64,000 bases of DNA, from positions 186,001 through 250,000 of the forward strand of contig NC_015957.1 in NCBI RefSeq assembly GCF_000147815.2, given 5' to 3'. Under the pieces are notes generated by a model that was not told where the DNA came from, ran no database searches, and saw only the letters and a list, made by a program, of their open reading frames with translations. The stretch is from Streptomyces violaceusniger Tu 4113. Lineage in GTDB: Bacteria; Actinomycetota; Actinomycetes; Streptomycetales; Streptomycetaceae. Within the stretch, counting starts at the first letter, position 1. Each line of letters starts with the position of its first letter. The position numbers and the translations under genes are program-made. Positions 19,080 to 45,293 of the stretch are shown here, piece after piece.

Positions 19080-19594
19080 GCGGTATGGGTGAGCAGCGCG
19101 AGAACCTTACGTACGAGCGGTTCGGGGTCGCGGTCCGCGAACTGGCGGAGAAGATCGCCGAGGATGGGTACGAGCCCGACATCGTGCTCTCCATAGCCCG
19201 TGGCGGGGTCTTCGTGGCCGGTGGGCTGGCGTACGCGCTCGACTGCAAGAACATCCACCTGGTGAACGTGGAGTTCTACACGGGCGTGGGGACCACCCTC
19301 GACATGCCCGTGATGCTCGCGCCCATGCCCAACGCGATCGACTTCTCCGACAAGAAGGTGCTGATCGCCGATGACGTGGCGGACACCGGCAAGACGCTGA
19401 AGCTGGTCCGTGACTTCTGCCTCGGCTCGGTCGCCGAGGTGCGCAGCGCGGTGATCTACGAGAAGCCCCAGTCGCTGGTGAAGTGCGAGTACATCTGGAA
19501 GCGCACCGATCAGTGGATCAACTTCCCGTGGTCTGTCTTGCCTCCATGTCGTAAGTCTGGCACACCGATTACTCCGTCGCGCGAGGCTCTGTAA
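19076..19594 (+). CDS. Phosphoribosyltransferase with an element-supplied C-terminus
   Basis: A PRPP-dependent purine/xanthine-type phosphoribosyltransferase. The PRPP loop is [13 protein letters not shown], and [17 protein letters not shown] is the first conserved motif. ATG 19076 overlaps the dcd stop. The native sequence runs to the Trp codon at 19529-19531 (INFPW). After it an integrated element supplies [20 protein letters not shown] and a stop. The displaced native tail lies at 45291-45344. The substitute keeps W-S-V-x-P-P, so the enzyme probably still works. A hairpin at 19611-19645 follows the new stop. Confidence 0.85.
19529..19531. other. attL core (TGG)
   Basis: Left junction of the element. 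Chromosomal sequence up to AACTTCCCG-TGG matches the coding frame of the phosphoribosyltransferase. From 19532 on the sequence is element-derived. The only bases shared with the right junction are TGG, as expected for a serine integrase, whose crossover core is 2-3 bases. Confidence 0.75.
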
Positions 19595-19610
19595 AAGTGC
19601 GTCTGACCTG

Positions 19611-19645
19611 CCGGTTCCTCCTGCTCGGAGCGTAGGGGGAACCGG
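19611..19645 (+). terminator. Hairpin after the chimeric phosphoribosyltransferase
   Basis: CCGGTTCC at 19611-19618 pairs with GGAACCGG at 19638-19645, with further pairing inside. It lies within the element, 17 bases after the new stop, so the element brings both a stop and a terminator-like hairpin to the host gene. Confidence 0.5.
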
Positions 19646-19778
19646 TCTTGTCGTCTGTTCGGGTGATCTTCGAGCGGCGGGGCGACGCCTGGCACACGCC
19701 CGGGGACGCTCCTGCTATCTGCTCGTCAGTGCGGCCCATTACGGTTGGCTGAGGTAGTCATCGTGGAGGGCTGGAGCA

Positions 19779-20093
19779 GTGCAGCACTGGTGGATCAAGT
19801 ACAACGTTCATGACCCCTTTCAGTGGGTTGCCTGCGACCCAGATAAGGGCGAATACCCGGACCCGATCCAGCGGCGTCAGGAGCTGTTCGAATTTGATTC
19901 GAACGTTGAGCCGGTTACTCCTCTGCTCGGTGGCGAACCGATGGGGTACGGGCCGACGCGCCAGGAAATACTCGAAAAGCTCCGTCGTCATGTCGGGCAC
20001 GATGCCGTGGTCATTCTGTCCTGTCGGCACGTGGACGACCCGGACGCTCCCGCGGCTCCTGAGATCACGGATTTCACATCCGGAAGGGGCTAG
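19779..20093 (+). CDS. Hypothetical AICE protein
   Basis: A 104-residue acidic soluble protein (MQHWWIKYNVHDPFQWVACD, YPDPIQRRQELFEFDSNVEP, RHVGHDAVVILSCRHVDD). No family recognised. GTG 19779 follows GGCTGGAGC. Its last codons are GGA AGG GGC TAG, and that TAG is part of the CTAG used as an insertion target. The convergent XRE gene also ends GGA AGG GGC TAG on the other strand, so this gene ends naturally in a shared palindrome and is not truncated by the insertion. Confidence 0.55.
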   Translation: MQHWWIKYNVHDPFQWVACDPDKGEYPDPIQRRQELFEFDSNVEPVTPLLGGEPMGYGPTRQEILEKLRRHVGHDAVVILSCRHVDDPDAPAAPEITDFTSGRG

Positions 20094-20232
20094 TACTCCA
20101 GCAGGATTTCGCTGTCTGACCTGCGAGGTTCGCTGGGCGGCTGGAGTGTAGCGGGCCGTGGCCTGGTCAGGGACGGTCTTATGGAGGCCGCCCCTCGATC
20201 GTGCGACAACGTCGCAGGTAATGACAGCGGCG
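20094..20232 (+). repeat. Left 139-bp terminal inverted repeat of the IS701-type element
   Basis: Reverse complement of 33617-33755 with one mismatch (GGGACGG here, GGGGCGG there). Identity ends at GACAGCGGCG. Because the right copy contains the last codons of the transposase gene, this left copy carries those codons in antisense. Confidence 0.85.
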
Positions 20233-20248
20233 AGGGAAGTCATCCCGT

Positions 20249-20617
20249 GTGATCACCGAGCATGCTGCCGGGCAGTGGGACCGTGAGCTGGACGACCTCT
20301 TCGTCGCTATCGGACATCGCTTCGGGCGAGTGGAACTTCGCCGCAGGATGCGTGATTACGTGCGCGGGCTGCTCGCACCGGTGGCCCGGAAGAACAGCTG
20401 GCAGCTGGCCGAGCAGGCGGGCCACGCCACCCCTAACGGTCTGCAGCACCTGCTTGCCGGCGCGAAGTGGGAACCCGACGACATTCGCGACGACCTGCAG
20501 GAATACCTCGCCACCCACCTCGGCGAGAACGGCGGGGTCCTGATCATCGACGACACCGGATTCCTCAAGAAGGGAACCACCTCCGCCGGGGTCCAGCGCC
20601 AGTACTCCGGCACCGCT
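20249..20617 (+). pseudogene. IS701-type transposase, 5' part (split)
   Basis: N-terminal 123 residues of an IS701 transposase: FGRVELRRRMRDYVRGLLAP, KNSWQLAEQAGHATPNGLQH and the first catalytic motif GVLIIDDTGFLKKG, ending GVQRQYSGTAG. The ISAzo13 insertion follows. The rest of the gene starts at 32695. GTG 20249 starts shortly after the terminal repeat. Confidence 0.85.
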
Positions 20618-20672
20618 GGGGCCCGTATTTCAATAAGTGCTCGGTAGAGGGGTGTTGGTGGGAGCCTGAGAT

Positions 20673-21632
20673 ATGACCTCGTGTCTGTCAGGCCGCGTTG
20701 CCGCTCGTGCTCTGCGGGCCAAGTTCGATCAGATCCTGCCGCACCTTGATGAGCGTCGCCGTCGGTTGTACCTGGCCAGTGAGGCGACGGCCCTCGGCCG
20801 CGGCGGGATCGTCCGGGTCGCCGCCGCCTCCGGCACCAGCACTGCCACCATCGCGCGAGGCATGGCCGAGTTGGCCTCTTGCCCCTCACCGACCCTGCGG
20901 GTCCGGGCTCCAGGTGCGGGCCGCAAGCGGCTGACAGACACCGACCCTGGTCTGCTGCCCGCGCTGGAGTCGCTGATCGAGCCGCATACCCGAGGCGACC
21001 CCGTCTCCCCGCTGCGGTGGACCACGTTGTCGTTACGGGCCCTGGCCTCGACCCTCACCACACAGGGCCACCCGGTCAGCGCTTCAACCGTCGGACACCT
21101 GCTGCATACCCTGGGCTACAGCCTGCAGGGAACCGCGAAGACGACAGAGGGCATCAGCCATCCGGACCGCGATGCCCAGTTCACCCACCTGAATGCCACC
21201 GCTGCCGAGTTCCTCAACGATGCCCAGCCGGTGATCAGCGTCGACACCAAGGCCAAGGAATGGCTCGGCAACCGGGACCGTCCCGGTCGCACCTGGCGCC
21301 CGGGCAAGAGCGCGATCAAGGTGGACTGCCACACGTTCACCACCAACGACCAGCCCATGGCGATCCCCTACGGGATCTACGACATTGCCAACAACAGCGG
21401 ATGGGTCAACGTCGGCACCGACCACGACACCGCCCAGTTCGCGGTGGAGTCCATCCGACGCTGGTGGCAACACCGCGGACGGGCGGACCACCCGAATGCC
21501 ACCCGGCTCCTGATCACCGCAGACTCCGGTGGCTCCAACGACCCCCGCCGCTGGACCTGGAAAAGCAACCTTGCCACCTTCGCACGAGAGAGCGGCCTGG
21601 AGATCACGGTCTGTCACCTACCGCCGGGGACT
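20673..21632 (+). pseudogene. ISAzo13 transposase, N-terminal part
   Basis: Starts MTSCLSGRVAARALRAKFDQ. Carries the N-terminal helix-turn-helix (GGIVRVAAASGTSTATIARG), the catalytic PVISVDTKAKEWLGN (first Asp), the PGRTWRPGKS motif, and LLITADSGGSNDPRRW (second Asp). The IS4 element cuts it after HLPPGT. The frame resumes exactly at 23088 with SKWNKIEHRMF, which holds the final catalytic Glu, so it was intact before the insertion. Confidence 0.85.
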
Positions 21633-23077
21633 CAATGCCGTTGCTTAAGTCAGTGAACTATCGTCGGCTGTAAGGTGATGACCTTGGGGGCAACGCGCCG
21701 TGTCGGCTGCCGGTCCCGGGTGTTGATCCGGTAGGACAGCTTGGAGGAGTACTTCGAGTCCGGCCGTTTGAGGTGCCGGTCCGCCTCGCGCAGGCGCCTG
21801 GCGCCGTTGTCGAGTTTCCGGTGCACCTTCGCCGCCAGCATGGCCAGGAACTTCTTGATCCTCTTGGGTGTGTCCGCACACTGACGGACCACACTGCGCC
21901 GCGTGTGCTTGAGGACTTTGACGAACGAGACCCGGTCCGGATCGATGCCGTTGTCCTCGGCCAGGGACATGATGATCCGCGTGAGGCAGTGGTGTACGAC
22001 CAGGTGCGCCCAGACCTCCTGCCGCACCAGATCCGGGTCTCCCGAGCGCAGAACCTCGGCCGGCCCGCGCTGGAAGGTCTTGATCTGCCGGAACGCCGAC
22101 TCCGCCTCCCACCTCGCATGGTAGAGCCGAGCCAACTCCGCCGCCGGAAAGTCAACCGGGTCGAGCAGGTCGGTAAGTAACCTGACCACCTCGCCGCCGT
22201 CGACGCGGTACTCGATCACCCGGACCAGCACCCCAGCGTGGTGTGCGCCCTTCTGCCCGGCCAGGTTCATCCTGGCCAAGTAGGTACCGTCGGGAAGATG
22301 CTCGACCGGCCGATGTGCCACCGGCGAACGGGCCCGGATCAGCAAGTGCGCCCCGGCTCCGAGGTACGCCTTCCACAAAGCGACCCCGGGAAAGTTCCGG
22401 TCCATGATGACCAGCATTCCGCTCGCCGAGCCAGCCAGAGCCATTGCCAGTTCCCGCTCACCTCCGCTGAATCCGCCCACCGCCGCGTCGACCTGCGCAT
22501 GTGTGCCGCACTCGGTCAGTGTCACCACCCGGACCTGCGGGAAACCCGCGGGCTGCCCGTTCTTGGCCGGGCCGCCGAACGCAGCCCGGTTGGCCGTCGT
22601 ATCCGGTGCGTCCAGCACGAACCCGTCTACCGCGGCCAGCCGCATCCCGCGATAGAAGGAGCCCTCCAGATCGATGGGGGCCAACGGGCTGGCCAGCTCG
22701 CGGAAAACGGTCTCCAGGACAAGCGGTCCCAGACGCTTGCGCGCCCGCGTGAACGAGGACTTGTTCGGGATTCTCCCGCTCAACTCCCTAATAGCCCCCA
22801 CCAGTTGCTCCGCCACATCGTCATGGGAATCCTGCTGGAACAACGCCAGGGCAAGCGTGAAGTAGACCATGAACCCGGCCGGCAGTGCACCGGGCTTCTT
22901 GTCCCGGACTCCGCACTTCTCCAGCACCCCGGCGACCAGTTCCGGGGTCACCCATCGGGTCACCACACCCAGTCGCACATGATCGGACAACCCCACCCAA
23001 GGATGCATGCCGAGCCCAACGACCCCGCTCCTCCAACGTCACTGGGAACTGCTTGACGAGTTCAAGCAACGGCATTG
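21633..23077. mobile_element. Complete IS4-family element
   Basis: 1,445 bp with inverted ends CAATGCCGTTGCTT (left at 21633, right ending 23077), flanked by a perfect 10-bp duplication GCCGGGGACT (21623-21632 and 23078-23087). Ten-base duplications are usual for IS4 groups. The undamaged ends and intact transposase mark it as the most recent insertion in this nest. Confidence 0.92.
21650..23008 (-). CDS. IS4-family transposase (intact)
   Basis: A 452-residue DDE transposase. The first Asp lies in AAVDGFVLDAPDT, the second in LVIMDRNFPG. The IS4 signature Y-(2)-R-(3)-E-(6)-K is present as YHARWEAESAFRQIK. It fills the element from 25 bp inside one end to 69 bp inside the other. Probably active. 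It lies antisense to the interrupted ISAzo13 gene. Confidence 0.93.
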   Translation of the reverse strand: MHPWVGLSDHVRLGVVTRWVTPELVAGVLEKCGVRDKKPGALPAGFMVYFTLALALFQQDSHDDVAEQLVGAIRELSGRIPNKSSFTRARKRLGPLVLETVFRELASPLAPIDLEGSFYRGMRLAAVDGFVLDAPDTTANRAAFGGPAKNGQPAGFPQVRVVTLTECGTHAQVDAAVGGFSGGERELAMALAGSASGMLVIMDRNFPGVALWKAYLGAGAHLLIRARSPVAHRPVEHLPDGTYLARMNLAGQKGAHHAGVLVRVIEYRVDGGEVVRLLTDLLDPVDFPAAELARLYHARWEAESAFRQIKTFQRGPAEVLRSGDPDLVRQEVWAHLVVHHCLTRIIMSLAEDNGIDPDRVSFVKVLKHTRRSVVRQCADTPKRIKKFLAMLAAKVHRKLDNGARRLREADRHLKRPDSKYSSKLSYRINTRDRQPTRRVAPKVITLQPTIVH

Positions 23078-23087
23078 GCCGGGGACT

Positions 23088-23799
23088 TCGAAGTGGAACA
23101 AGATAGAGCACAGGATGTTCTGTCACATCACCGCGAACTGGCGGGGGCGGCCGCTGACCAGCTACCAGGTCGTCCTCGAGACCATCGCCGCCACAACCAC
23201 CAGGACCGGCCTGACCATCGGGGCCGAACTGGACACAGGCAGCTACGACCTCGGCATCAGCGTCACACCCGCCGAGTTCCACGCCCTTCCGATCACACCC
23301 AACACCTTCCACGGTGACTGGAACTACACACTGTCTCCCGTTCCACCGCGAGCGCCAGACGCGCCGGCAACGACACACCGGACCGACCCGGCCCTGACCG
23401 CGATGCTCACCGACCCGGCCCTGACCGGCATGTCACGAACCGCCTTCGAGCATCTGGTGGCGGTCTCGGAGCCTTTTCTGGGACGCCTTGGCCGAGGCAG
23501 CATTCCAGCGACGCTTCCACCGCCCACGCAGCTACCGCCACCCCCAGACCAGCAGCGTGGACCACACCCACCGGCTCCTGGCAGCCATCCTCCGCCGCCG
23601 CAGAGCGGTGACCATGACGTTCCTGGCCCAACTACTGGGCGTCAACCGCACCAACCTGTCCATCCAGTACCAGGACGCAAAACGGCTCCTGGACCTGCAC
23701 CGGATCCTCATCACGCCGATACCCGGGACACCCGCCCGCACATTGGAACAGCTACACGCCCGAATAACCCCCGAGGAACCCGTCGTTGACAGTTATTGA
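23088..23799 (+). pseudogene. ISAzo13 transposase, C-terminal part
   Basis: Continues the transposase with SKWNKIEHRMFCHITANWRG, VVLETIAATTTRTGLTIGAE and FHALPITPNTFHGDWNYTL. After about 23475 the natural coding sense moves to another frame (AEAAFQRRFHRPRSYRHPQ, then LLAAILRRRRAVTMTFLAQL with a helix-turn-helix look), ending 23799. A frameshift, or a second overlapping reading frame, is therefore present near 23475. Confidence 0.7.
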
Positions 23800-23810
23800 A
23801 ATACGGGCCC

Positions 23811-24172
23811 AGAGCGCACAACTCGATGAGCTGATACCAGTCCTTCCCCGATCGTGCCAGGCGGGACATCTCGACGCCCAGCACCAGGCCGACATGGTCC
23901 AGCCCGATCTCGGTGACCAGACGCTGGAACCCCGAGCGTCCGACCGCACTCGCCCCGGAACGGCCCAGGTCCTCATCGATCACCACCACCCGCGAGGCGG
24001 GCCAGCCCAGCGAGACGGCCCGATCCACCAGCGCGTACTGCAACCGAGTCGACTCCTGGTGATCCGAGACCTGCTGCATGCTCGACTGCCGCACGTACAC
24101 GACCGCGAGCCTGGTCAGCTGCCAGTCAGTCACCTTGCTCCCCGACCGCTCCCACGGCATCAGCGCCGTCAT
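23811..24172 (-). pseudogene. Serine recombinase, truncated by ISAzo13
   Basis: N-terminal 120 residues of a resolvase-type recombinase. The catalytic Ser lies in VVYVRQSSMQQVSDHQEST. ASRVVVIDEDLGRSGASAVG and GLVLGVEMSRLARSGKDW are the other active-site regions. It ends abruptly in the ISAzo13 terminal repeat at 23810. ATG 24172 overlaps the stop of the small gene upstream. The remnant belongs to whichever transposon or plasmid donated the cargo. Confidence 0.8.
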
Positions 24173-24375
24173 GACCGGCCCGCCTCACCGCTCATCGACG
24201 GCGCGGCTGCCGCCTCCGGCAGAGCCCGGCCCGCCAACACCGCCAGCCACCGCACCGCCAGCAGCCGGTTCACCTCCGGCAGCCCCGCCCACACCTCCTC
24301 GCCCAGGCCCTGACGGGCCAGGCTCTGGGGCAGCCGCCCCCTGCGTCGTCCACGACGACTCGCTCTCCTCTTCAC
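24169..24375 (-). CDS. Small accessory protein upstream of the recombinase
   Basis: A 68-residue basic protein (MKRRASRRGRRRGRLPQSLA, LPEVNRLLAVRWLAVLAGRA) whose stop overlaps the recombinase ATG (ATGA). Short Arg-rich proteins of this type often precede serine recombinases in transposons. No function is assigned. Confidence 0.45.
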   Translation of the reverse strand: MKRRASRRGRRRGRLPQSLARQGLGEEVWAGLPEVNRLLAVRWLAVLAGRALPEAAAAPSMSGEAGRS

Positions 24376-24471
24376 CCTGCCGAGCCCGCAGCCGCTCGAT
24401 CACCACGACGAGCCTGAGCAGTCCCTCACGCCCGATTACCGGCACATCACCTACTTGATACCCATTCATAG

Positions 24472-24916
24472 GTGCAGTGTGCTTGGCAGATTGAGGAGGC
24501 ATTCCAAGCCGCGAAGAACGAGTGCGGCCTGGATCAATACGAGGTCCGCCGGTATCCGGGCTGGTACCGCCACATCACCCTGGCCATGCTCGCCCACGCT
24601 TTCCTCGCCGCGATGACCGCCGCCGCGGGGACCGAAAGGGGGGCGGCAGAAACGGTTCCGACGCCCTCGCACCGCTCACCGTGGCGGAAATCCGGCGACT
24701 CCTGGCAACTGGCCGCCCCACGCCCACGCACCTGCGGCACACCGGCCACGCACTGAACTGGTCCCGCTGGCGCCGCCGTCACCAGGCCACCGCCCGCCGC
24801 TGCCACTACCACCGCCGCACCCGAGGTCACGAACTCCCGCCACCTGACGGGGTATCAGCCGAGTACACTCCAAAACAGGGCTCTGACCAGCAGCGATAGC
24901 GAACTGCGACTGGAGT
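24472..24916 (+). pseudogene. IS701-type transposase, C-terminal remnant with right end
   Basis: Encodes [20 protein letters not shown] and [19 protein letters not shown], close to the split IS701 transposase. The zero frame ends at about 24756. The -1 frame carries the conserved tail [15 protein letters not shown] and WSRWRRRHQATARRCHY. The switch lies in GAAAGGGGGGCGG at 24634-24646. The remnant ends GGAGTA-TTAG at about 24920, the right end of such an element. The first half is missing. Confidence 0.75.
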
Positions 24917-24920
24917 ATTA

Positions 24921-25301
24921 GTCCTTGCAGCGCGGGGTGCCCGGCAATGACTTTGAGTGTCGGGACAGTACGGTTGCGCGGCGAAGTGGCGTTCCACTCG
25001 TTAAACGCCTGTGCGCGTCGGTATGGCGGAGGGGGGCGTGCTGTGCTGCTGGTGCCGGGTTGTGCGGGTACTGTACGTCGCCGCCCCGTCCCAGCGTTTC
25101 CTCACGCAGGAACGCCGGGGCGAATTCCGGGCCCGGCGATTGCAGCCGCCCTGGAGGCAAGCCCCCCTCATACGGGTCATACTGTGACTGGTCATACGGG
25201 TCATACTGGCTGGGCTCGGGCACGCCACTCTCCTGGTCTCTGGTAACAGCGGATCCCTGTTCCGGCTGTACTACGTACATACCCACGGCCCGGTTCACTC
25301 G
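24921..25301 (-). other. Unassigned stretch with QYDPY repeats
   Basis: A minus-strand frame of 126 codons from 25298 contains the tandem repeat SQYDPYDQ-SQYDPYEG (DNA repeat GGTCATACGGGTCATACT at 25180-25212). The first 70 residues look natural; the rest is Arg/His/Pro-rich like a shadow. It may be a fragment of a plasmid gene. No family recognised. Confidence 0.3.
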
Positions 25302-25520
25302 TCACGGCCGTGACGACCCCCTTAGAAAGCCGCCCGCTTCCGCGTGGCCGCCGTAGCACAGCCAGGTGCGGACCCCGCGGGAGCGGTGGGCGGAGCGGCC
25401 GTCCACGACGAGGCGCACCTTGTGGTCGAAGTGGCCTGCGAGCCCGTCCAGGAAGCGGCGCATGACGCGGGGGCCATGAAGCTTCCCCGTGCCACGTCGT
25501 ACCACGTGGCTGGACGCCGT
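25302..25520 (-). pseudogene. IS630-type transposase fragment
   Basis: Encodes MRRFLDGLAGHFDHKVRLVV then DGRSAHRSRGVRTWL, matching the second catalytic Asp region of IS630 transposases. Everything before and after is lost. Confidence 0.6.
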
Positions 25521-25656
25521 GGCAGGATCTGCGGGTTCCGGTGAACCCAATGCCTCGCGCGCGCGTTGTGATGCCCGGACAAGATCCCGCCCCCCGCTCA
25601 TCACTTCGTTGACAACCGTCTGAGACAACCCTCACCGCGCATCAGGAAGGAACACG

Positions 25657-26166
25657 ATGACGGCCGACAATCCTGACGTCGAGCAAGAGGCCCGAAAGCC
25701 CGCGGAGCCCTCCTCCAAGACACCTCCTCCACGGCCCGCCGCCCCGCGATTCATCCTTTATATGGAGGGGCCCGCGTACGCACAGACCCTACGGGGATTG
25801 ACCTTGTGGACCCACCACGTGCTGCTGCCGGTCTACGGCAGGGAGGTCACGTCCACGGCCCCCTGGTGCTCCCGCTGGTGGGAGCACCAGGAAGCGGTCG
25901 CCCAGCTTCACGGCCTGTGGCTCGCCTGGAGCGAGCTGACCGGTCCCGGTTCCGGGGTGTGCGGGCCCGCCAACTGGCACCGCGACTACCTGTTCCCCGT
26001 GATGAGCTCATTGCGGGACCCGGACGGCCCCTTCGCCGGCTGCAAGGTGGGCGCCCACCGTGCAAAAAAGGCTCCTCCCATCGACGACGTCGACCCGTTC
26101 GGCCCGCCGCCCGAACCTCCGTCCCCGACCCTACAAGGAACACACCAAGATCAGCAGGTCGGGTGA
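25657..26166 (+). CDS. DUF4913-family plasmid-type protein
   Basis: A 169-residue protein with the DUF4913 core: LTLWTHHVLLPVYGREVTST, PWCSRWWEHQEAVAQLHGLW and GPANWHRDYLFPVMSSLRDP, rich in conserved Trp and His. Such proteins are typical of Streptomyces plasmids and AICEs; the role is unknown. ATG 25657 follows AGGAAGG. Its presence between IS remnants suggests the cargo passed through another conjugative replicon before landing here. Confidence 0.75.
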   Translation: MTADNPDVEQEARKPAEPSSKTPPPRPAAPRFILYMEGPAYAQTLRGLTLWTHHVLLPVYGREVTSTAPWCSRWWEHQEAVAQLHGLWLAWSELTGPGSGVCGPANWHRDYLFPVMSSLRDPDGPFAGCKVGAHRAKKAPPIDDVDPFGPPPEPPSPTLQGTHQDQQVG

Positions 26167-26433
26167 CCAGCGAGCTTAAAAATCAAGCTCAGCCAGGGGA
26201 CCGGCTCGGTCGGCCCCCGTCGTACCGCCGGCCCCCTTGCGGCCACCAGTCCTTGCGACTTTCTGTGTGGCCCGAACCCGCGGCCGAGGTGGATCCGGAT
26301 CCGCTCAACGTCGAAGGCAGCGTCGGGGCTGCACGACGGTGCAACCCCGACGCTGAATTGGACCGCACCAGGATCAGTTTTAGGAAGCCGCCGAGCAGCG
26401 CGATGAGGCGGTGAGGCGGTGAGGCCGACTGCA
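26167..26433. other. Spacer between plasmid-type gene and catabolic operon
   Basis: I see no gene. The FAH-family gene ends at 26434 and points into this spacer, so a terminator may lie here, but no strong stem is obvious. Confidence 0.35.
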
Positions 26434-27318
26434 TCATGCGGTCACCTGTCGCTCTCCCGTCTCGGCAAAGGCGACGCAGACCTGGCGGAGTTCACCGATG
26501 CCGCCGATACTCGTCTCGACGACGTCGCCCTCCAGGAGGAAGCGGGCGGGCTTCCGCGCTCCGCCGATCCCGGCCGGGGTGCCGGTGAAGACGATGTCAC
26601 CCGGCATGAGGGGCAGGACCGCCGAGAGATGCTCCACCAGCTGGGGCACCGAGAAGATCAGCTGCTTGGTGGAGCTCCGCTGCATCGTCTCGCCGTTGAT
26701 ACGGCACTCGATCGGGAGGTCGTCGGGGTCGGCGACCTCATCGAGCGTGACCAGCCAGGGTCCTTGTGGCGCGAACCCGGGGAACGACTTGCCCAGCGAG
26801 AACTGAGGTGCGGGGCCGGCGAGTTGCAGGGCACGCTCCGAATAGTCCTGCCCTACGGTCAGACCGGCTACATAGGACCATGCTTCGGCGGCGGTCACCC
26901 GCTCGGCCCGGCGGCTCACCACGACCACCAGTTCGGCTTCCCAGTCGACCGTCGCCGTCGGCAGCGGCAGTGCGCCGACCGGTCCGGTGAAGCTGCTGGC
27001 GAACTTCGTGAACGTCGGCGGTGACGTCGGGTAGTCGAATCCCGACTCATCAGCATGGTCGCGGTAGTTGAGCCCGATGGCGAAGACCTGCCGTGGGTCT
27101 GGCGAGGGCGCGCCGAGTTCCGCGAGGATCAACGGGATGCCCTTCATGGCGAAATCGATTGATGCGTGCTCTGCCCAGTCGACGAACTCGTCCCACGCGT
27201 CGTAGACGCTCCTTGGCCCGGGGCCGAAGCGCCCCTGGCTTGCTTCCGCGACGTCGACGAGGGACGTAGCGTCAGGCGAGATCAAAACCGAACGGCCATG
27301 ACGTGTAGCGATGCGCAT
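26434..27318 (-). CDS. Fumarylacetoacetate hydrolase-family enzyme
   Basis: A 294-residue FAH-superfamily protein, a divalent-metal enzyme acting on 2-oxo acids; family members include 2-hydroxypentadienoate hydratase, oxalocrotonate decarboxylase and acylpyruvate hydrolase. Family marks are FAIGLNYRDHADE, DWEAELVVVVSRRAER (metal-binding Glu), AGLTVGQDYSERALQ, FSLGKSFPGFAPQGPWLV and DIVFTGTPAGIGGARKP. ATG 27318 begins MRIATRHGRSVLISP. It is the last gene of the four-gene operon, after ring cleavage and C-C hydrolysis, and fits a lower meta-cleavage step. The exact reaction cannot be read. Confidence 0.88.
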   Translation of the reverse strand: MRIATRHGRSVLISPDATSLVDVAEASQGRFGPGPRSVYDAWDEFVDWAEHASIDFAMKGIPLILAELGAPSPDPRQVFAIGLNYRDHADESGFDYPTSPPTFTKFASSFTGPVGALPLPTATVDWEAELVVVVSRRAERVTAAEAWSYVAGLTVGQDYSERALQLAGPAPQFSLGKSFPGFAPQGPWLVTLDEVADPDDLPIECRINGETMQRSSTKQLIFSVPQLVEHLSAVLPLMPGDIVFTGTPAGIGGARKPARFLLEGDVVETSIGGIGELRQVCVAFAETGERQVTA

Positions 27319-27427
27319 GCGTACGTGTCTTTCTGGCTGACAATGGTGGATGGGGGCACGCCCGTGAGAGCGTCGTGGTCGGCTGCACAGGCCGGCAGTG
27401 GACAACACGAGCCGACGGCGGTACCGA

Positions 27428-28354
27428 TCACGCCGCCAGCGTGGCCGCCCACTGTGTGAAGATCTCGACGTACCGAGGCGGGTCGAACTGGTGCATCATG
27501 TGCAACGCGTCCGGCACCGACGCATAGTCGACCTTCACCCCGGCGGACTCCATCAACAGCCTGGCCCGGGCGGCCTGCTCGTCGGAGAGCGCTCCGACCA
27601 GGTGGCCGGTGTCCGGGTCGATGTCGCGCATGTGGTGTGTGAGAAGTACCGGCGTTTTGACTTGGGTCAGCAACTGCTCGTGCGGACAGTGCAATGCGAC
27701 GGTCCCCTCCCAGAAGGCCCGTGCCCATTCCGGGTCGTACTCCCGCATGTGCTGCGGGATCTCGTCCGCCACGAAGTACCGCGCCATCGGCGACGACGAG
27801 GCGTCGGCCGCGCGGCAGTAGCCCGTCCAGTCGCCGACGCTCCACTGGTCGCCGAGGTAGGTGCGGAAGAGCTCGAACATGGGCCCCGCCGCCTGACGGA
27901 TCGAGTGACCGCACGTGGTGACGAGCTCGGACGCGAAGAACGGGGCGTCCTCGCACAGCGCCCCCCGCACCTGCCCGGGCATGGAGTAGGCCGACAGCCA
28001 GGCCGCGAGGACGCCACCAGAGGAGTTGCCCGCGACGATGACGGGGCGTTTCACCACCAGGGCGATGAACCGGACCAGGTCGTTGCCGAAGTTGTCGAGG
28101 CTGTACCGCTTCGGGGCCCAGCTGCTGCGCCCCTGGCCCCGCAGGTCGACGGCGTAGACATGGAAGTTCTCGGCAAGCAGGCCCATCGCTTCCTCGTACC
28201 CCCACCATGAGCCAGTCTGCTCGGGGATCAGCAGCACGGCGGGCATGTCCGGCTCGCCGGCCTCGGCGTAGTTCATGGTGATCTCGCCGAGATCGGCCTG
28301 CTTCTCGGGATAGGCGTGCGGGACGTAGACGTCGCGCTGTGCGGGATCAGCCAC
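27428..28354 (-). CDS. Alpha/beta hydrolase, probable meta-cleavage product hydrolase
   Basis: A 308-residue alpha/beta-hydrolase. The nucleophile elbow is AGNSSGGVLAAW, the oxyanion region LLIPEQTGSWWGYEEAM, and the catalytic His is in VPDALHMMHQFDP. GTG 28354 is chosen because GAAGGAGA lies 9 bases upstream; the open frame reaching 28648 runs through the dioxygenase gene and is not real. It sits between an extradiol dioxygenase and a FAH-family gene, the place of MhpC/BphD-type C-C hydrolases that cut the ring-opened product. An esterase role is the main alternative. Confidence 0.8.
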   Translation of the reverse strand: MADPAQRDVYVPHAYPEKQADLGEITMNYAEAGEPDMPAVLLIPEQTGSWWGYEEAMGLLAENFHVYAVDLRGQGRSSWAPKRYSLDNFGNDLVRFIALVVKRPVIVAGNSSGGVLAAWLSAYSMPGQVRGALCEDAPFFASELVTTCGHSIRQAAGPMFELFRTYLGDQWSVGDWTGYCRAADASSSPMARYFVADEIPQHMREYDPEWARAFWEGTVALHCPHEQLLTQVKTPVLLTHHMRDIDPDTGHLVGALSDEQAARARLLMESAGVKVDYASVPDALHMMHQFDPPRYVEIFTQWAATLAA

Positions 28355-28413
28355 CGTTATCGTCTCCTTCTCTTTGGTCTGCGATGCCCGAGTCGTTGGA
28401 CAACGGGTAGTGG

Positions 28414-30965: not shown

Positions 30966-31012
30966 GGCACTACTATTCGAGCTGTGACCAGCGAGACGCC
31001 CCGGCGATTTCG

Positions 31013-32691: not shown

Positions 32692-32694
32692 CTG

Positions 32695-33670: not shown

Positions 33671-33755
33671 GACCGCCCCTGACCAGGCCACGGCCCGCTA
33701 CACTCCAGCCGCCCAGCGAACCTCGCAGGTCAGACAGCGAAATCCTGCTGGAGTA
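33617..33755 (-). repeat. Right 139-bp terminal inverted repeat of the IS701-type element
   Basis: Near-perfect reverse complement of 20094-20232. It contains the last 17 codons of the transposase in the -1 frame, so coding sequence and transposon end overlap. Confidence 0.85.
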
Positions 33756-33851
33756 CTAGGGCCTGTCCGGAGTCGTGATCAATGTTGGCTCTGCGGCGTA
33801 AGAAGTTGATCTGGCTCTACGCGGTCATGGAGATCGTGAAAGGCTCGTCGG

Positions 33852-34700: not shown

Positions 34701-34719
34701 GGCCTGCTCAAGGCCGTGA

Positions 34720-35720: not shown

Positions 35721-35763
35721 ACGAATGTTCTACCGCCACGTTGATCACGACTCCGCACAGGCC

Positions 35764-36822: not shown

Positions 36823-36848
36823 ACGCCCCTGCCATACGCCGGGCGTAT
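36821..36848. promoter_or_regulatory. Palindromic operator in the XRE/DUF6415 gap
   Basis: ATACGCC-G-GGCGTAT at 36834-36848 is a perfect palindrome. A third half-site ATACGCC lies 13 bases upstream at 36821-36827, overlapping the XRE start region. The position suggests autoregulation by the XRE protein and control of the divergent genes. Confidence 0.6.
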
Positions 36849-36915
36849 CGGATTGACCTTGGCCTCCCTCCAAGATGTGACCACGAGACCAGCCTGGCAG
36901 GCAGGAGGGATTGCA

Positions 36916-39675: not shown

Positions 39676-39878
39676 CGTCCCCGACCGGACCGGACCCGGT
39701 CTATCCGGTGGCGCCGGAGAGCGGGGATGACGACTCGCGGTTCACGAACGGCCTGCTCTTCGATGTGGTCAAGGTGATCGAGTCGCACGGCTACCCGAAG
39801 CTCGCATCCGGCCGTGACCTGCTGGAACTGCGGATATCCCTCTACCGATTCCTCTACATGGACAAGGACGCGCTGTGA
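39672..39878 (+). CDS. Small AICE protein upstream of traB
   Basis: A 68-residue acidic protein ending SGRDLLELRISLYRFLYMDK. GTG 39672 overlaps the previous stop and its own stop overlaps the TraB-like start, so it is translationally coupled on both sides. Family not recognised. Confidence 0.6.
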   Translation: MTSPTGPDPVYPVAPESGDDDSRFTNGLLFDVVKVIESHGYPKLASGRDLLELRISLYRFLYMDKDAL

Positions 39879-41266
39879 CTGTGGGAGAGGTCATCGGGTC
39901 TGCCCCGGCTGTTGCCGGGGCGGCCCTGGCCCTGATCGGCATATGGGCCCTGTGGTGGCTGGTGCGCTATGTGCGTGCCGACACGATGACGCGGGCGAGC
40001 ATGCGGCAGGCGATCGGTGTACGGCGTCGCTGGCGTCGGCTGGCCCCGATGGTCGGACTGTCGGTGACTGACAAGACCCCTCCGGCCGTGATCGTGGCGC
40101 CGGACGGGAAGGTCCCCAAGCCACGGGTCCTGATCCCGAAGATCAAGGTGGCCGCCGACCGGTACGGGGTGCTGGTGCACGCGGTGTGCCTGCCCAAGGT
40201 GGGGCTGGCGGAGTTCCAGCGGGCGGCGCCGTATCTGGCTGACGCGTGGCGGTGCACGCGGGTTTCGGTCCTGCCGGACAAGCCGGGACAGCTCGTGATC
40301 CGTGGCGTGCGGGTTGATCCGCTGATCGTCCCCACCGAGCACACCCCGACCGGGACTGTGCCGGAGGATCTGGCGGTGTGGGATCTGGGCCTGGACGAGT
40401 ACGCCTTGCCGGTGAGCGTGAGCCTGGCCAACGTGCCGGGCGTCACCGTGGCCGGGCTGCCGGGCTTCGGTAAGACGTCTCTGGTCAACCGGTTCATGTG
40501 CGATACGGCGCCGTCCGATGCGGTGCAGTACGCGGTGGCCGACGGGAAGGTGACCTCCTCCCATGAGGGCGACTACGCCGACCTGACAGACCGGATCTTC
40601 GCGTTCGTCGGTGACGATCTCGAAGAGGCGAACGCGCTGTTCACGCGGCTGGTGAAGCTGCGGCGGGACCGGTCGGCGTCCATCCGTGCCCTGCTGGGCG
40701 TGAAGAACATGTGGCACGTCGGGCCCTCGGCGGCCTGGCCGCTCACCGTGCTCATCGTGGACGAGGCACACACCTACTTCCGCGACTACAAGGGGTCGGA
40801 CACGCGGACGAAGAAGCTCGCCGCGCTGGCTGCCGAGAATGCGCGGCTGGTGGAGGACCTGGTGAAGAAGGGCCGTAACGTCGGCATCCTGGTGATCATC
40901 GCGACGCAGAAGGCGACCGGGGACGCCATCCCCACCTTCATCCGGGACGTGTGCCCGGTGGGCCTGTCCTTCGCCCAGAAGACCGCTGAAGCGGCCGTGG
41001 TCGCGCTGGGGGAGGACATCCGGAACTGGCCGGACGCCAGCCCGACCGCGCTCCAGGACCCGGCCTATGTCGGCGTGGCTGCCATGGCGCACCAGGGGCG
41101 TCCCGGCTTCGCCCGCATCCGCACCCCGTACGTCGCCGACGCGGACGCTGCCCGCATCGCCACCGACACCGCCCACCTGACCCGCGACCCCGCCGAGCTG
41201 CTGGAGGAACTGGCGGTCTCCGCGATGCGGATGGACGACCCGTTCACCAAGCGGGAGGCAGCCTGA
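39875..41266 (+). CDS. FtsK/SpoIIIE-type DNA translocase (TraB/TraSA-like)
   Basis: A 463-residue conjugation motor that moves double-stranded DNA between mycelia. One N-terminal membrane helix (VAGAALALIGIWALWWLV), a middle domain, then the ATPase: Walker A GLPGFGKTS, Walker B LTVLIVDEAH, and VGILVIIATQKATGDAIP. AICEs use this single protein for transfer instead of a relaxase system. GTG 39875 overlaps the preceding stop. Confidence 0.9.
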   Translation: MTVGEVIGSAPAVAGAALALIGIWALWWLVRYVRADTMTRASMRQAIGVRRRWRRLAPMVGLSVTDKTPPAVIVAPDGKVPKPRVLIPKIKVAADRYGVLVHAVCLPKVGLAEFQRAAPYLADAWRCTRVSVLPDKPGQLVIRGVRVDPLIVPTEHTPTGTVPEDLAVWDLGLDEYALPVSVSLANVPGVTVAGLPGFGKTSLVNRFMCDTAPSDAVQYAVADGKVTSSHEGDYADLTDRIFAFVGDDLEEANALFTRLVKLRRDRSASIRALLGVKNMWHVGPSAAWPLTVLIVDEAHTYFRDYKGSDTRTKKLAALAAENARLVEDLVKKGRNVGILVIIATQKATGDAIPTFIRDVCPVGLSFAQKTAEAAVVALGEDIRNWPDASPTALQDPAYVGVAAMAHQGRPGFARIRTPYVADADAARIATDTAHLTRDPAELLEELAVSAMRMDDPFTKREAA

Positions 41267-41315: not shown

Positions 41316-41996
41316 ATGTCTGAGGACCGGATCACTCAGCGCACCGTGACCGTGATCATGGGCATCATCGCGGCCCTGGCCTTCGTCTTCTCCTTCGGCA
41401 ACGTCTGGGCCCTGGCCCTGCGCCTCGGTGTCCCCGCCCCGGTCGCACCGCTGATCGCCCCGATGGTCGACCTGTCCGTCGTCGGCCTCCTGGTCGCCCT
41501 GCGCTACCTGTCCCTGCGCGGCGTCCCGGCCGAACAGATCAAGGGCGCCACCCGGCTGATGCACTTGTCCGGGCTGCTGACCCTGGCCCTCAACGTCGCC
41601 GAACCGATCGTCGCCGGGCACTACGGCCGGGCCGCCGTGGACGCGGTTGCCCCGCTCCTTCTCCTGGGCTGGGGAGCCGTCGGCCCGCAACTCCTGCGCC
41701 ACTTCCACACCGTCGCCCACGCCGCCCCGGCTTCAGCCTCGTCGCCCGCTCCGGTGGAGAAGGCACCGGCCCCCGCGCCGGAGCCTGCCCCGGCCCCCGA
41801 ACCGGTCTCGCCACCAGCCACGCCGAAGCGAGAGTCTTCCCCGGTGGTCACGGTGCCCGTGCCGCTGCTGAACGCGGCGCGCACCATCGCCGACACCTAC
41901 CGGGCTGAACACGGCGAGCCCATCACCCCGGCTCAGCTCCGGACTCGCCTCGGCGTCGCACTGCCGTTGGCTACCGCCGCGCACGCCCAGCTCTGA
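41316..41996 (+). CDS. DUF2637 Spd-like membrane protein
   Basis: A 226-residue protein with four membrane helices (TVIMGIIAALAFVFSFGNVW, LIAPMVDLSVVGLLVALRYL, LSGLLTLALNVAEPIVAGH, AVAPLLLLGWGAVGPQLLR), a Pro/Ala-rich linker and a C-terminal helical DNA-binding-like segment (PITPAQLRTRLGVALPLAT). DUF2637 proteins act in intramycelial spread. A very strong ribosome site, GGAAGGAGGTGA, precedes ATG 41316. Confidence 0.8.
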   Translation: MSEDRITQRTVTVIMGIIAALAFVFSFGNVWALALRLGVPAPVAPLIAPMVDLSVVGLLVALRYLSLRGVPAEQIKGATRLMHLSGLLTLALNVAEPIVAGHYGRAAVDAVAPLLLLGWGAVGPQLLRHFHTVAHAAPASASSPAPVEKAPAPAPEPAPAPEPVSPPATPKRESSPVVTVPVPLLNAARTIADTYRAEHGEPITPAQLRTRLGVALPLATAAHAQL

Positions 41997-42128: not shown

Positions 42129-43580
42129 GTGAAAGCCCCCCTGGACCTGCGCCACGTGGCGAGCCTGGCCCTGCGGGACCTCGTCCACCTCGCCCATCTC
42201 CCCGACTTCGACCGCATCCAAGACCAGATCAGCCGAATCCGCGGTTGCACCCGGCCGGTTCAGCTCGTCGGCTCCACCGAAACGCGCGACATGGCGACGG
42301 ACACCGTTGTCCGCGCGTACAGCACTGCTGACGAGCCCACTGGGCGGCTGCTGACCACTTGCGGCAACCGCCGTTCCTCCCGCTGCCCGTCCTGCTCGCG
42401 CCTGTACGCCGCCGACACCTACCACCTGATCAAGGCCGGGCTCTCGGGCGGCAAGAGCGTGCCGGAGACCGTGCGCACGCACCCGCGCCTGTTCGTCACG
42501 CTCACGGCCCCGTCGTTCGGGCCGGTGCACAACCGTCGCACCACCGACGCGGGCAAGACCTTGGCCTGCCGTTGCGGCGAACGCCACCCGGCCGACGACT
42601 CCGCCTTGGGCACGCCGCTGTCCCCGGCTACCTACGACTACACCGGCGCCGTGCTCTGGAACGCCCACGCCGGAGCCCTGTGGGCACGCTTCACCACCTA
42701 CCTGCGCCGTGAGCTGGCCGCGCACCTCGGCATGACGCAGAAGGCGCTGAACGCGGCGCTGCGCGTCTCCTTCGCGAAGGTCGCCGAGTACCAGCGGCGC
42801 GGCCTGGTCCACTTCCATGCCGTGATCCGCCTCGACGGTCCCGAGGGCAGCAACGAGCCCCCGCCCCGGTGGGCCACCGCCGATGCCCTCACCCACGCGG
42901 TCACTGAGGCGGCCGAACGCGCCGTGCTCACGGTCGCCTCCGACGCCATCGGCGAACGCCGACTCACCTGGGGCTCCCAGCTCGACATCCGCGAGATCGC
43001 GGCCCTGGGCGACGGTGAACTGACCGATCAGAAGGTCGCCGCCTACGTCGCGAAGTACGCCACGAAGAGCGCCGAGGACTCCGGAACAGTAGATCGCTCC
43101 CTGCGCTGTACCCACTGCACTGGACGCGGCTACCAGCGCGGCCCTGACGGCTTCCGGGACCTGTGCGACGAGTGCGAGGGCACTGGCCAGTCCGAACCCA
43201 TCGCGGATCTGCCCGTGCACAGCCACGTCCGCCAGATGATCCGCACCGCCTGGAGCCTCGGCCACCTGCCCGAGTTCGCCGAACTCAAGCTCTGGAAGTG
43301 GGCCCACATGCTCGGCTTCCGGGGCCACTTCTCCAGCAAATCCCGCCGCTACTCCACCACCCTCGGCGCCCTGCGCGACATCCGCCGCACCTGGCGCACC
43401 GAGCAAGCACGCACCGCAGACGACCGGCCCGAGGTGGACGAGGAAACGACCCTCGTCGTCTCCCACTGGCAATACCTGGCCTCCGGCTACAGCCCCGGTG
43501 AGGAACTGCTAGCCGCACAGGTACGCCACGACATCGCCCAAGCCGAACGCCTCAGGACGGAAGGAGCCCCGTGGCTGTGA
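42129..43580 (+). CDS. RepSA-like replication initiator
   Basis: A 483-residue rolling-circle type initiator of the RepSA group. Marks are TTCGNRRSSRCPSCSRLYAA (zinc-binding Cys cluster), HPRLFVTLTAPSFGPVH, GLVHFHAVIRLDG (HxH metal motif), VAAYVAKYATKSAED (active Tyr with Lys), and a second Cys cluster CTHCTGRGY/CDECEGTG. It would replicate the element after excision. GTG 42129 follows GAAAGGATG. The origin usually lies in or near this gene. Confidence 0.9.
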   Translation: MKAPLDLRHVASLALRDLVHLAHLPDFDRIQDQISRIRGCTRPVQLVGSTETRDMATDTVVRAYSTADEPTGRLLTTCGNRRSSRCPSCSRLYAADTYHLIKAGLSGGKSVPETVRTHPRLFVTLTAPSFGPVHNRRTTDAGKTLACRCGERHPADDSALGTPLSPATYDYTGAVLWNAHAGALWARFTTYLRRELAAHLGMTQKALNAALRVSFAKVAEYQRRGLVHFHAVIRLDGPEGSNEPPPRWATADALTHAVTEAAERAVLTVASDAIGERRLTWGSQLDIREIAALGDGELTDQKVAAYVAKYATKSAEDSGTVDRSLRCTHCTGRGYQRGPDGFRDLCDECEGTGQSEPIADLPVHSHVRQMIRTAWSLGHLPEFAELKLWKWAHMLGFRGHFSSKSRRYSTTLGALRDIRRTWRTEQARTADDRPEVDEETTLVVSHWQYLASGYSPGEELLAAQVRHDIAQAERLRTEGAPWL

Positions 43581-43732
43581 CCACCGCGACTGAATCCCGC
43601 GCTCGACGAGGGGGCACGCATGAGGACGGCGCTGCCCGTGAGGCGGAGTGGTTGAGGAAGCACCTGGCCCGTGCGCCTGAGCGGGATGAGGAGTGGATAC
43701 GGCGTGCCCGTCTGCTCCACGGCAGGACATAG
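43571..43732 (+). CDS. Small protein in the excisionase position
   Basis: A 53-residue charged protein (MAVTTATESRARRGGTHEDG, AEWLRKHLARAPERDEEWIR) overlapping the end of rep by 10 bases and preceded by AAGGAG at 43561. In AICEs the excisionase gene lies between rep and int, exactly here. It lacks a clear MerR-type helix-turn-helix, so an Xis or recombination directionality role is only a hypothesis. Confidence 0.5.
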   Translation: MAVTTATESRARRGGTHEDGAAREAEWLRKHLARAPERDEEWIRRARLLHGRT

Positions 43733-43743
43733 GGACAGAGAAC

Positions 43744-43779
43744 ACGAGGGAGCCCCGGCCGAAACCGGGGCTCCCTCGT
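43744..43779. terminator. Bidirectional terminator between rep and int
   Basis: A perfect 15-bp stem ACGAGGGAGCCCCGG / CCGGGGCTCCCTCGT with a 6-base loop (CCGAAA) fills the gap between the convergent small gene and the integrase. Confidence 0.8.
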
Positions 43780-45213
43780 TCAGCGCCAAATCGGATCGAT
43801 CAAGTCGGGATCGAACTTGCGCTTGCCCCGGCCTGCGGGATGGATGACCACAGCAGTGAGACTGTGCAATACGATCTCGCGCTGGCGCTCGATCGGGAGA
43901 GCGAAGAACTCCTCTTCAGTCAGGTCGCCAGCATTTCCTTTGGCCTCCGCCTGCTTCCGCTCCTTGTAGAAACGGGCTCGCTCCAACCTCAGCGCGTCCC
44001 GCTCCTGTTCCTTGGCGGGCAGCAGTTGGAGGAGGGTGGACACGGTGATGGTCTTTGCCTTCTCCGCCTCGATGAGCTGGGCAATGTCCTGGAGCAAGTC
44101 CTCCAGCTCACGTTCCCTGGGCCATCGCGCCTCAACCGGTACGCCTGTGGTGGTGGCCTTCTCGCGCTGCTCCTTGAGTACGAGCCGGGCTATCAGCTTG
44201 TCCACGGGTTCGCCGACGCGGCCGACCTTGCCGCACCCGCCGTTGACCTTCGAGCACTGATACTTGTACTGCGCTCCCTTGGAGCCGGGCTTCCACTTGT
44301 GGTTCACCTGGCCCCGGATCTTGTTCTTGCACAGGCCACAGCGTGCGATGCCCGAGAGCAGGTACCTACGGGCGAGCATCTGTCCAGCCTTCGTCTGCTT
44401 GCGCTCGGCGATGGCTGCGCAGACCGCCTCCCACTCCTCGACGATGTTGATCGGGTCCCACTCGCCCATGACGGGCTGCCCGTCGTCGCCGTGCAGAATC
44501 TCACCGTGGTAGGTGCGGTACCCCACCAATCGAGGGTTGGTGAGGATGTGCTCGACGTGGTGGTGGGCCATCCGCTTGGTGCCCTGGCGGGGGTTCCCTA
44601 GGCCCTGTTCCTGCCATCGGGTCCGGATGGTGCCGATACGGACCCCGGCGAGAACTTCCTTCTGCGCCTCGCGGATGTGCTTCGCCGCTTCCGGATCGAC
44701 CTTGTTCCGGTCGTCCTTCAGCCACCCGTAGGGCGCCGGACCGCCGTTGGCCTTTCCTTGCTGGGCCAGCTCAAGGTGCTTGCGCTTGATCCGCCGCGAC
44801 GTGTCGTGTGACGACTTGTTGGCAAAAGCCACCATGATGCGCGCCATGGTCCGTCCGTCCGCCGTGCCGAGGTTGACGTCATTGGTGACGGTCGCGAACT
44901 CCAGTCGCGGGCGCTCGTCGAAGATCTCGATCAGTCGTTCAAGGTCTCGGGGCTGGCGCGCTAGCCGGTCGAGGTCGTACGCCACGACGCCATCGATCAG
45001 CCCGGCGCGGAGATCCTTGAGCATGAGCTCGAACTCGTCGCGCACGACGTTGCGTTTGAACGCGGATACGTCGTTGTCCTCGTAGATCTTCACAGGCTGC
45101 CATGTGCGGAGATCCGCCAGCCGCTCGCAGTCGGTACGCTGGCGAGCCACGCCGAGCGCATCGCCCTCATCGTCCCGTGAGATGCGGGTGTAGATCCCCA
45201 CCTTCCGCGCCAC
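43780..45213 (-). CDS. Large serine integrase
   Basis: A 477-residue large serine recombinase. The N-terminal catalytic domain shows VGIYTRISRDDEGDALGVAR (catalytic Ser in TRIS), DLDRLARQPRDLERLIEIF and MARIMVAFANKSSHDTSRRI. The recombinase domain begins GPAPYGWLKDDRNK. The zinc-ribbon domain has CGLCKNKIRG with a later CSKVNGGCGKVG. A coiled-coil stretch lies near 390-430. GTG 45213 follows GGGGGAG. It points into the element with its start 78 bp from attR, as usual. It should recombine attP with TGG in the phosphoribosyltransferase gene. Confidence 0.92.
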   Translation of the reverse strand: MARKVGIYTRISRDDEGDALGVARQRTDCERLADLRTWQPVKIYEDNDVSAFKRNVVRDEFELMLKDLRAGLIDGVVAYDLDRLARQPRDLERLIEIFDERPRLEFATVTNDVNLGTADGRTMARIMVAFANKSSHDTSRRIKRKHLELAQQGKANGGPAPYGWLKDDRNKVDPEAAKHIREAQKEVLAGVRIGTIRTRWQEQGLGNPRQGTKRMAHHHVEHILTNPRLVGYRTYHGEILHGDDGQPVMGEWDPINIVEEWEAVCAAIAERKQTKAGQMLARRYLLSGIARCGLCKNKIRGQVNHKWKPGSKGAQYKYQCSKVNGGCGKVGRVGEPVDKLIARLVLKEQREKATTTGVPVEARWPRERELEDLLQDIAQLIEAEKAKTITVSTLLQLLPAKEQERDALRLERARFYKERKQAEAKGNAGDLTEEEFFALPIERQREIVLHSLTAVVIHPAGRGKRKFDPDLIDPIWR

Positions 45214-45290
45214 GAATGCACGCTCCCCCTGCTCTGACCTGCTTCGACGGTGCAGGAAGAGATTACTACGATCATTCAGTTCACTTGCCC

Positions 45291-45293
45291 TGG
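45291..45293. other. attR core (TGG)
   Basis: Right junction. CACTTGCCC lies on the element side, and on the chromosomal side AGCGTCGAACCG continues the interrupted gene in frame. Joining the outer halves gives attB CTTCCCG-TGG-AGCGTCG; joining the inner halves gives attP CTTGCCC-TGG-TCTGTCT. Confidence 0.75.

Follow-up and report, generated by a model that had tools for sequence, protein, structure and literature searches.

Does a stack of mobile elements, each lodged inside another, record a series of unconnected accidents, or do the inner elements choose the genes that they break? This question is raised by a stretch of 64,000 nucleotides (the window; contig NC_015957.1, positions 186,001–250,000) of the 11.1-Mb genome of Streptomyces violaceusniger Tu 4113. 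There, an actinomycete integrative and conjugative element (AICE) contains an insertion sequence (IS) of the IS701 family, which contains a 12-kb unit bounded by ISAzo13-family ends, and the left ISAzo13 contains an IS4-family element. We read the boundaries of these layers within positions 18,500–46,600, each being tested by script, and searched this and related genomes for the corresponding empty sites (coordinates marked C3 refer to the whole contig that holds the window). Very probably, the stack was built by ordered insertion, with site-specific transposition into conserved codons of the catalytic region of other transposase genes as the two inner steps. The initial annotation of the window had recognised the layers and treated them as unconnected; the nesting stands, yet the ISAzo13 and IS4 insertion points recur in many other insertions.

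Order of the layers and origin of the 12-kb unit

The AICE spans positions 19529–45293 and splits a phosphoribosyltransferase gene, with one TGG at 19529–19531 and another at 45291–45293. The inner boundaries are the following:

20090–20093: CTAG duplication of IS701, left copy
20094–33755 (+): IS701 element, its transposase split at codon 124 by the ISAzo13-bounded unit
20616–20618: CTG target duplication, left
20619–23810 (+): left ISAzo13, complete, 1,737 bp without IS4, C-terminal part of the transposase frameshifted
21623–21632: IS4 target duplication GCCGGGGACT, left copy
21633–23077 (−): IS4-family element of 1,445 bp with an open 452-aa transposase (PF13006, PF01609), in the codons of ISAzo13 between PPGT and SKWNK
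23078–23087: IS4 target duplication GCCGGGGACT, right copy
32009–32691 (−): right ISAzo13 remnant, inverted, which supplies the outer end
32692–32694: CTG target duplication, right
33756–33759: CTAG between IS701 and an IS5-type unit

Removing the insertions in silico restores the genes that they interrupt. Without the AICE, the phosphoribosyltransferase gene reads INFPW followed by SVEPPVVRREGQVRDA and a stop, in frame, and the displaced tail at 45291 is real, as it equals the native tail of the gene in another genome (L305). Without the ISAzo13-bounded unit (20619–32691; 12,073 bp), the IS701 frame rejoins exactly and, without IS4, the ISAzo13 frame rejoins as PPGTSKWNKIEH. Natural empty sites are also available. 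The same genome carries an ISAzo13 without IS4 and with one copy of the 10-bp sequence (C3:7317555–7319295), two IS701 relatives of 84–86% amino acid identity are uninterrupted (L277, L279), and the empty attachment site of the AICE, attB, is found in related genomes (see below). Thus, the boundaries drawn in the initial annotation hold, namely the TGG codon, CTAG at 20090–20093 and 33756–33759, CTG around a 12.07-kb unit and both copies of the 10-bp duplication around a complete IS4; two of the empty-site searches that it proposed, for attB and for IS701 without the unit, were fruitful. The order that it read, AICE, IS701, ISAzo13 unit and then IS4, is supported because of the duplications, the frame rejoining and the natural empty sites. 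It covers these four layers, the order between IS701 and the adjoining IS5-type unit not being readable from the sequence.

The three ISs can be placed in their families. The IS701 family produces a 4-bp YTAR duplication; in the window, the element has PF13546 and its CTAG duplication, and the N-terminal part of its transposase gives 137 bits with NF033540, under the cut-off of 150. The ISAzo13 family is defined by terminal inverted repeats and a short target duplication. Here, the terminal inverted repeats begin with GGGCCC and the duplications are of 3 bp; an uninterrupted copy in a different IS701 of the same genome (L040) reaches 545 bits with NF033519 (cut-off 200) and 436 bits with PF07592. 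The IS4 transposase gives 185 bits with NF033592 (cut-off 115), and its 10-bp duplication lies in the range of about 9–12 bp of that family.

Both outer ends of the 12-kb unit are left ends of ISAzo13. The right one belongs to a remnant of 684 nt, 99% identical to the left copy; the detected arm reaches 32692 and so includes one base of the duplication. As for the composite transposon claimed initially, the outer ends and the CTG duplication fit, but the right copy is a 684-bp inverted remnant and not a full element, and the whole unit was found at no second location among 41 plasmid records and 294 other genomes of the genus. We propose that its two inverted ISAzo13 outer ends would have mobilised the unit a single time and brought its cargo into an IS701 already present on the AICE. 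The alternative that survives best, unlikely although it deserves weight, is that the unit was built in place: one ISAzo13 would have entered IS701, and a second copy and the cargo would have joined it later by recombination and deletion, with no composite transposition. The missing second location speaks for such a construction, and so does the surrounding of the remnant, since an IS701 N-terminal fragment directly precedes it in the same arrangement as in L040, meaning that a rearrangement happened. This likeness makes it probable that an IS701 once surrounded the remnant as well. However, construction in place has to face the CTG present at both outer ends and the exact rejoining of the IS701 frame; moreover, recombination of a single copy with a circle predicts direct repeats, whereas the observed ones are inverted.

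Today, the 12-kb unit is probably not mobile alone, because the transposase of the left ISAzo13 is both split by IS4 and frameshifted. The other copy of the same genome shares this C-terminal frameshift, when both are compared with intact 554-aa copies elsewhere. A second open reading frame (ORF) in ISAzo13 was ruled out: several relatives (e.g., L043, L046, L049, L209, L241) have one single 554-aa frame, and the resident copies therefore carry a frameshift.

Insertion points in transposase genes and their palindrome

In IS701-family transposase genes, codon 124 is a recurrent insertion point of ISAzo13 elements of this clade, which separate GTA from G there. Among close relatives of the ISAzo13 of the window, 50 loci are on target, forming 41 site clusters, and six are off target (L209, L228, L242, L246, L248, L249). 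The on-target insertions occur in both orientations, with 3-bp duplications, in diverse IS701 genes (25–85% identity to that of the window). The second ISAzo13 copy of the same genome, for instance, lies in the same codon of a different IS701 and has a CAG duplication. The more distant ISAzo13 loci, 63 among the 80 best of at least 524, include none that breaks IS701 at codon 124. In a quick tree of 106 rows, 35 of them on target, 8 changes suffice for the on-target label, whereas shuffled labels need 28.8 on average.

The pattern was first seen in the own genome and in a scan of named genomes, as IS701 transposase halves breaking at one codon, and in the further draws the query was the IS, never its target. 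The best 80 loci of the scan comprise 14 on target, the 63 distant ones, one with an unreadable flank (L063) and two unclassed (L091, L099). In the genus draw, for which places of at least 79% identity were fetched, 8 of 9 new sites are on target, as are 11 of the 12 new loci of the family draw. Plasmids gave 84 records with ISAzo13 matches, most of them distant, of which 13 regions were read (H4, at 97%, and H14, at 80%, were left unread) and 9 are on target, some with common flanks. One further locus had no readable flank (L237), and L236 is the window itself. The on-target list was compiled by hand, and the 41 clusters were defined by flank identity (nine merged pairs); three more sets (L097 with L064 or L065, L199/L200, L231/L239) may each represent the two halves of a single insertion, or else have arisen by recombination. 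In L048, L206 and L250, the same IS701 half lies on both sides of ISAzo13, suggesting inversions or recombination between copies.

Relatives of the IS4 of the window sit recurrently between PPGT and SKWNK of ISAzo13-family transposases (22 of 28 loci), including targets only about 50–60% identical to the ISAzo13 of the window. In three loci (L218, L219, L221), the target is an IS5-type transposase, between DNG and (I/N)KWR; two loci lie elsewhere (L212, L263), and one is unreadable (L220). The targets of L218 and L221 are IS5-type by Pfam, and the elements of these three loci form one group (SH-aLRT 100), a sister clade. The duplications are mostly of 10 bp, and AAGTGG or close variants then follow in both kinds of target. 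The 28 loci are made up of 12, window included, and 16 plasmid regions (16 of 17 plasmid records, the best place in each); their labels were made by hand, four were read on one side only (L214, L217, L222, L265), L219 is rearranged, and loci with shared flanks were left unmerged. At L212 (genome G095), the IS4 lies outside any ISAzo13 match and has its own 10-bp duplication; this genome also has the native attB with the restored tail (L305).

The same ISAzo13 motif receives group II introns with LtrA-type proteins (L248, L249; nt 1022/1023), and a few codons further on there is a second intron-like insertion (L199/L200, L234; nt 1037/1038), recognised by its end sequences and, for L234, by a weak LtrA match. 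At least one, and probably two, group II intron types appear to settle in codons of the ISAzo13 catalytic motif, no more than 30 bases from the IS4 site. In L252, the motif carries an IS4 directly beside what is apparently the start of the same group II intron.

What does ISAzo13 read at its target? Most of its sites, on and off target, bear an imperfect palindrome. On-target sites have a half-site like GAGAACTGCC on both sides, reading outward from the 3-bp duplication. The signature TGNC, 15–18 bases outward from the duplication (T15 G16 C18), is found in 26 of 30 on-target halves. At off-target sites, 10 of 12 half-sites have it, against a background of 1.96% (0.0196; binomial 5e-16), and at other offsets the count never exceeds 2 of 12. 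We also built a matrix from 15 of the 23 on-target rows, excluding duplicates (L207, L208, L210) and rearranged or imperfect rows (L048, L206, L235, L250, L265). Scored with it, the six off-target sites fall in the top 0, 0.033, 0.045, 0.11, 1.1 and 3.3% of 87,320 background positions. Given this half-site signature outside IS701, what the element recognises seems to be a symmetric site in DNA, one that the codons of IS701 happen to spell. At least one terminal repeat of ISAzo13 carries ACTGYC, as the target half-sites do, a similarity for which a rough estimate of chance is about 1 in 10 for one end; it is no more than suggestive of a transposase that would locate its target by the domain with which it binds its own ends. 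A symmetric transposase assembly would read a DNA palindrome encoded by chance in conserved codons. Since conserved codons encode it, such a target would be available to the parasite wherever its host family lives, and every insertion would break the transposase of the host.

Several points weigh against this reading. The shared protein motif forces part of the similarity between on-target sites, and the off-target sites are therefore the only independent test of the palindrome; two of these six are weak by the whole matrix (fractions 0.011 and 0.033), and the offset had been spotted by eye before being tested. In the tree, the off-target rows, six in number, take six changes, which is also what shuffled labels give. 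The six ISAzo13 loci found elsewhere, 4 of the 13 plasmid ones being off target, and two IS4 loci, one of them 99.9% identical to the IS4 of the window (L212), mean that the specificity is a strong preference. A strict rule, with the break within one codon of 124/134 and near an element end, is passed by 46 of the 50 on-target loci; the other four (L045, L225, L050, L205) were kept, as their IS701 match breaks at most a few codons away and the bases beside it read like the same motif. In the window, the inner end of the left ISAzo13 sits in a serine-recombinase fragment, with no IS701 target on that side. Finally, insertions in dispensable transposase genes could be over-represented because they are the ones that survive, but this would not concentrate them at one codon.

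Could the repeated positions come instead from a few old insertions, spread by IS701 copies carrying ISAzo13 or by homologous recombination? Common flanks in the nine merged pairs, three more pairs of half elements that may each be a single event, and copies that look rearranged (L048, L206, L250) would suit such a spread. We nevertheless find it improbable: the interrupted IS701 genes are very different, both orientations occur, the duplications vary (CTG, CAG, CGG, CCG), and the off-target sites have the same half-site signature with duplications of their own. As for ordinary nesting, in which independent and random layers would collect in mobile-element genes because these are dispensable, it is frequent in mobile-element-rich regions, which counts for it, and the same elements are also interrupted elsewhere (ISAzo13 at nt about 735, 1405 and 1515), but dispensability does not choose one codon, and we rejected this highly improbable account on the 41 clusters at one place of IS701 genes of 25–85% identity, compared with none of the 63 distant ISAzo13 loci, and on the 22 of 28 IS4 loci at one ISAzo13 codon.

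The AICE, the cargo and the IS5-type unit

The other features of the stack, from the attL to the attR side, are:

19085–19531, start approximate (+): phosphoribosyltransferase gene (PF00156) up to attL, with the TGG core at 19529–19531
19779–20093 (+): 104-aa AICE ORF from the ORF list, ending in a TAG stop that belongs to the left CTAG
23811–24172 (−): serine-recombinase fragment (PF00239), truncated where the left ISAzo13 has its inner end
24484–24920 (+): remains of another IS701 (C-terminal fragment and right end) up to TTAG, from repeat comparison
26434–31780: cargo, with a FAH-family hydrolase, an alpha/beta hydrolase, an extradiol-type dioxygenase and a class A flavin monooxygenase (all −), and an IclR regulator (+)
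31783–32008 (+): N-terminal fragment of a third IS701, 85% identical to the IS701 at C3:7317180, which also carries an ISAzo13
33760–35763 (no strand): IS5-type unit, with end repeats and a DDE transposase
35764–35767: third copy of CTAG
35764–36873 (−): helix-turn-helix regulator (PF13560), its stop codon inside the CTAG palindrome
39875–41266 (+): FtsK/SpoIIIE-type transfer protein (TraB-like), PF01580 just above cut-off
41316–41996 (+): DUF2637 membrane protein (PF10935), in a Spd-like position
42129–43580 (+): RepSA-type replication initiator, open (PF20199, 522.8 bits)
43780–45216 (−): large serine recombinase, the AICE integrase, an open frame (PF00239, PF07508, PF13408)
45291–45344 (+): attR, made of the TGG core and the native 3' tail displaced from the phosphoribosyltransferase gene, from the in-frame rejoining

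By entering the phosphoribosyltransferase gene, the AICE gives it a substitute C-terminus, with a stop at 19594. Among 16 fetched relatives, 13 have this tail (W-S-V/T-L-P...) at the same attL, where the element supplies the C-terminus, and 14 have a native-type tail in the locus of 2.8–4.4 kb around the integrase (L124–L139; loose pattern). The attB pattern is present in 181 of 199 genomes. We read 30 of its loci, which divide into 26 with the native attB and tail and 4 with an AICE-type tail. The attachment site is thus common to most of the related integrases read. Integrase matches of at least 70% identity, some of them partial, occur in 17 of the 294 other genomes of the genus. The assignment to the AICEs relies on an integrase (PF00239/PF07508), a Rep (PF20199) and an FtsK-type Tra (PF01580) on one element, together with att sites in a chromosomal gene and empty sites in relatives. 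The initiator gives 572.9 bits with NF041486, under the cut-off of 700, and the transfer protein scores far under the cut-off of NF041214; the counterpart of the latter in one relative (L153) is 74% identical, and the AICE gene order is the same there. By blastn, L153 has no match to IS701, ISAzo13 or the cargo stretch. Without its insertions, the AICE would measure about 10 kb by coordinates. Because the integrase and the RepSA-type gene are open, it may still be mobile as a whole, by means of its own integrase, RepSA-type and transfer genes.

The families of the cargo genes fit the meta-cleavage catabolism of an aromatic compound. This agrees with the catabolic content announced in the initial annotation, which had missed the serine-recombinase fragment and the two further IS701 fragments. 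Among the NCBIfam matches shown for the cargo, no equivalog cut-off is reached, and the sole model whose cut-off is reached is a subfamily 'hypothetical protein', for the monooxygenase. The closest plasmid match to the cargo is partial (Streptomyces antimycoticus, 90% identity, 35% covered), none of the 41 plasmid records reaching 80% coverage, and pieces of the stretch 28400–31780 are present in 32 of the 294 other genomes of the genus.

The inverted end repeats of IS701 measure about 139 bp, the detected arms (148 nt, 98%) overrunning the element by a few bases. Its CTAG duplication had been correctly noticed, but not the third CTAG (35764–35767) nor the IS5-type unit (33760–35763) that adjoins it. 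This unit consists of an end repeat, an inositol-monophosphatase-family gene (33852–34700, +), an end-like sequence at 34701, a two-frame DDE transposase (−) and an end repeat; the passenger gene has a chromosomal relative of 81% nucleotide identity at C3:2685916. Once both IS701 and this unit are removed, and only then, a 20-bp palindrome, GGAAGGGGCTAGCCCCTTCC, can be seen, and its CTAG contains the stop codons of two convergent AICE genes. Other IS701 loci have CTAG or CTAA duplications in 8 of 19 cases. By eye, at least five of these eight adjoin the end of another insertion, which is an IS701 end (L281, L284, L290, L293) or a probable IS5-type end (L295); IS701 therefore seems to favour the junctions of earlier insertions.

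A possible food chain and its relation to known systems

Site-specific insertions of this kind would give a concrete target motif and a natural example of transposons limiting transposons. We tentatively suggest, as a possibility with somewhat lower chances than its contrary, that Streptomyces and their kin harbour a standing food chain, in which ISAzo13-type elements, IS4-type elements and group II introns would have settled on palindromes or motifs encoding codons of the catalytic region of another transposase, each insertion switching its host off. If so, DDE ISs would be precise parasites of other ISs, with a target sequence that the host transposase could hardly change, since its catalytic region is encoded there. 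Chains of this kind would curb transposon bursts from within. They would also steer cargo, here catabolic genes, onto any element carrying the host IS, giving a simple reason why cargo genes reach conjugative elements at repeatable places. Among the open-access PubMed Central titles and abstracts listed, we found no report of ISAzo13 in IS701 or of IS4 in ISAzo13 at a fixed site.

The outermost layer resembles the pSAM2/RepSA-type AICEs, which likewise combine Int, RepSA and an FtsK-type Tra in one chromosomal element bounded by att sites; it differs from them in entering a phosphoribosyltransferase gene, supplying its substitute 3' end and carrying the 12-kb unit. In the survey of Ghinet et al. 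(2011, PMC3218068), 19 of 144 AICEs have serine recombinases, some inside protein-coding genes. Sequence-specific choice of target by bacterial ISs is described in PMC10132070 and PMC1525189, with ISAjo2 lying near a recombinase binding site. ISAjo2, the IS1202 family and the REP-targeting ISs aim at dif/pdif sites or at extragenic repeats, whereas the targets here are codons of the catalytic region of another transposon.

Two other known systems share the parasitism or the kind of target. IS4321 and IS5075, of the IS110/IS1111 group, are site-specific ISs which parasitise Tn21-type transposons, the target being the terminal repeats and a guide RNA being used. The recombinase of this group is of the DEDD type. 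In contrast, the ISs considered here are of the DDE type and enter the transposase coding sequence, not the terminal repeats. Homing elements, i.e., group II introns, inteins and homing endonuclease genes, settle in highly conserved coding positions, those of transposase genes included, and group II introns occur here in the same ISAzo13 motif. ISAzo13 and IS4 differ from them in that they use DDE transposases, leave target duplications and, being without splicing, break the host gene.

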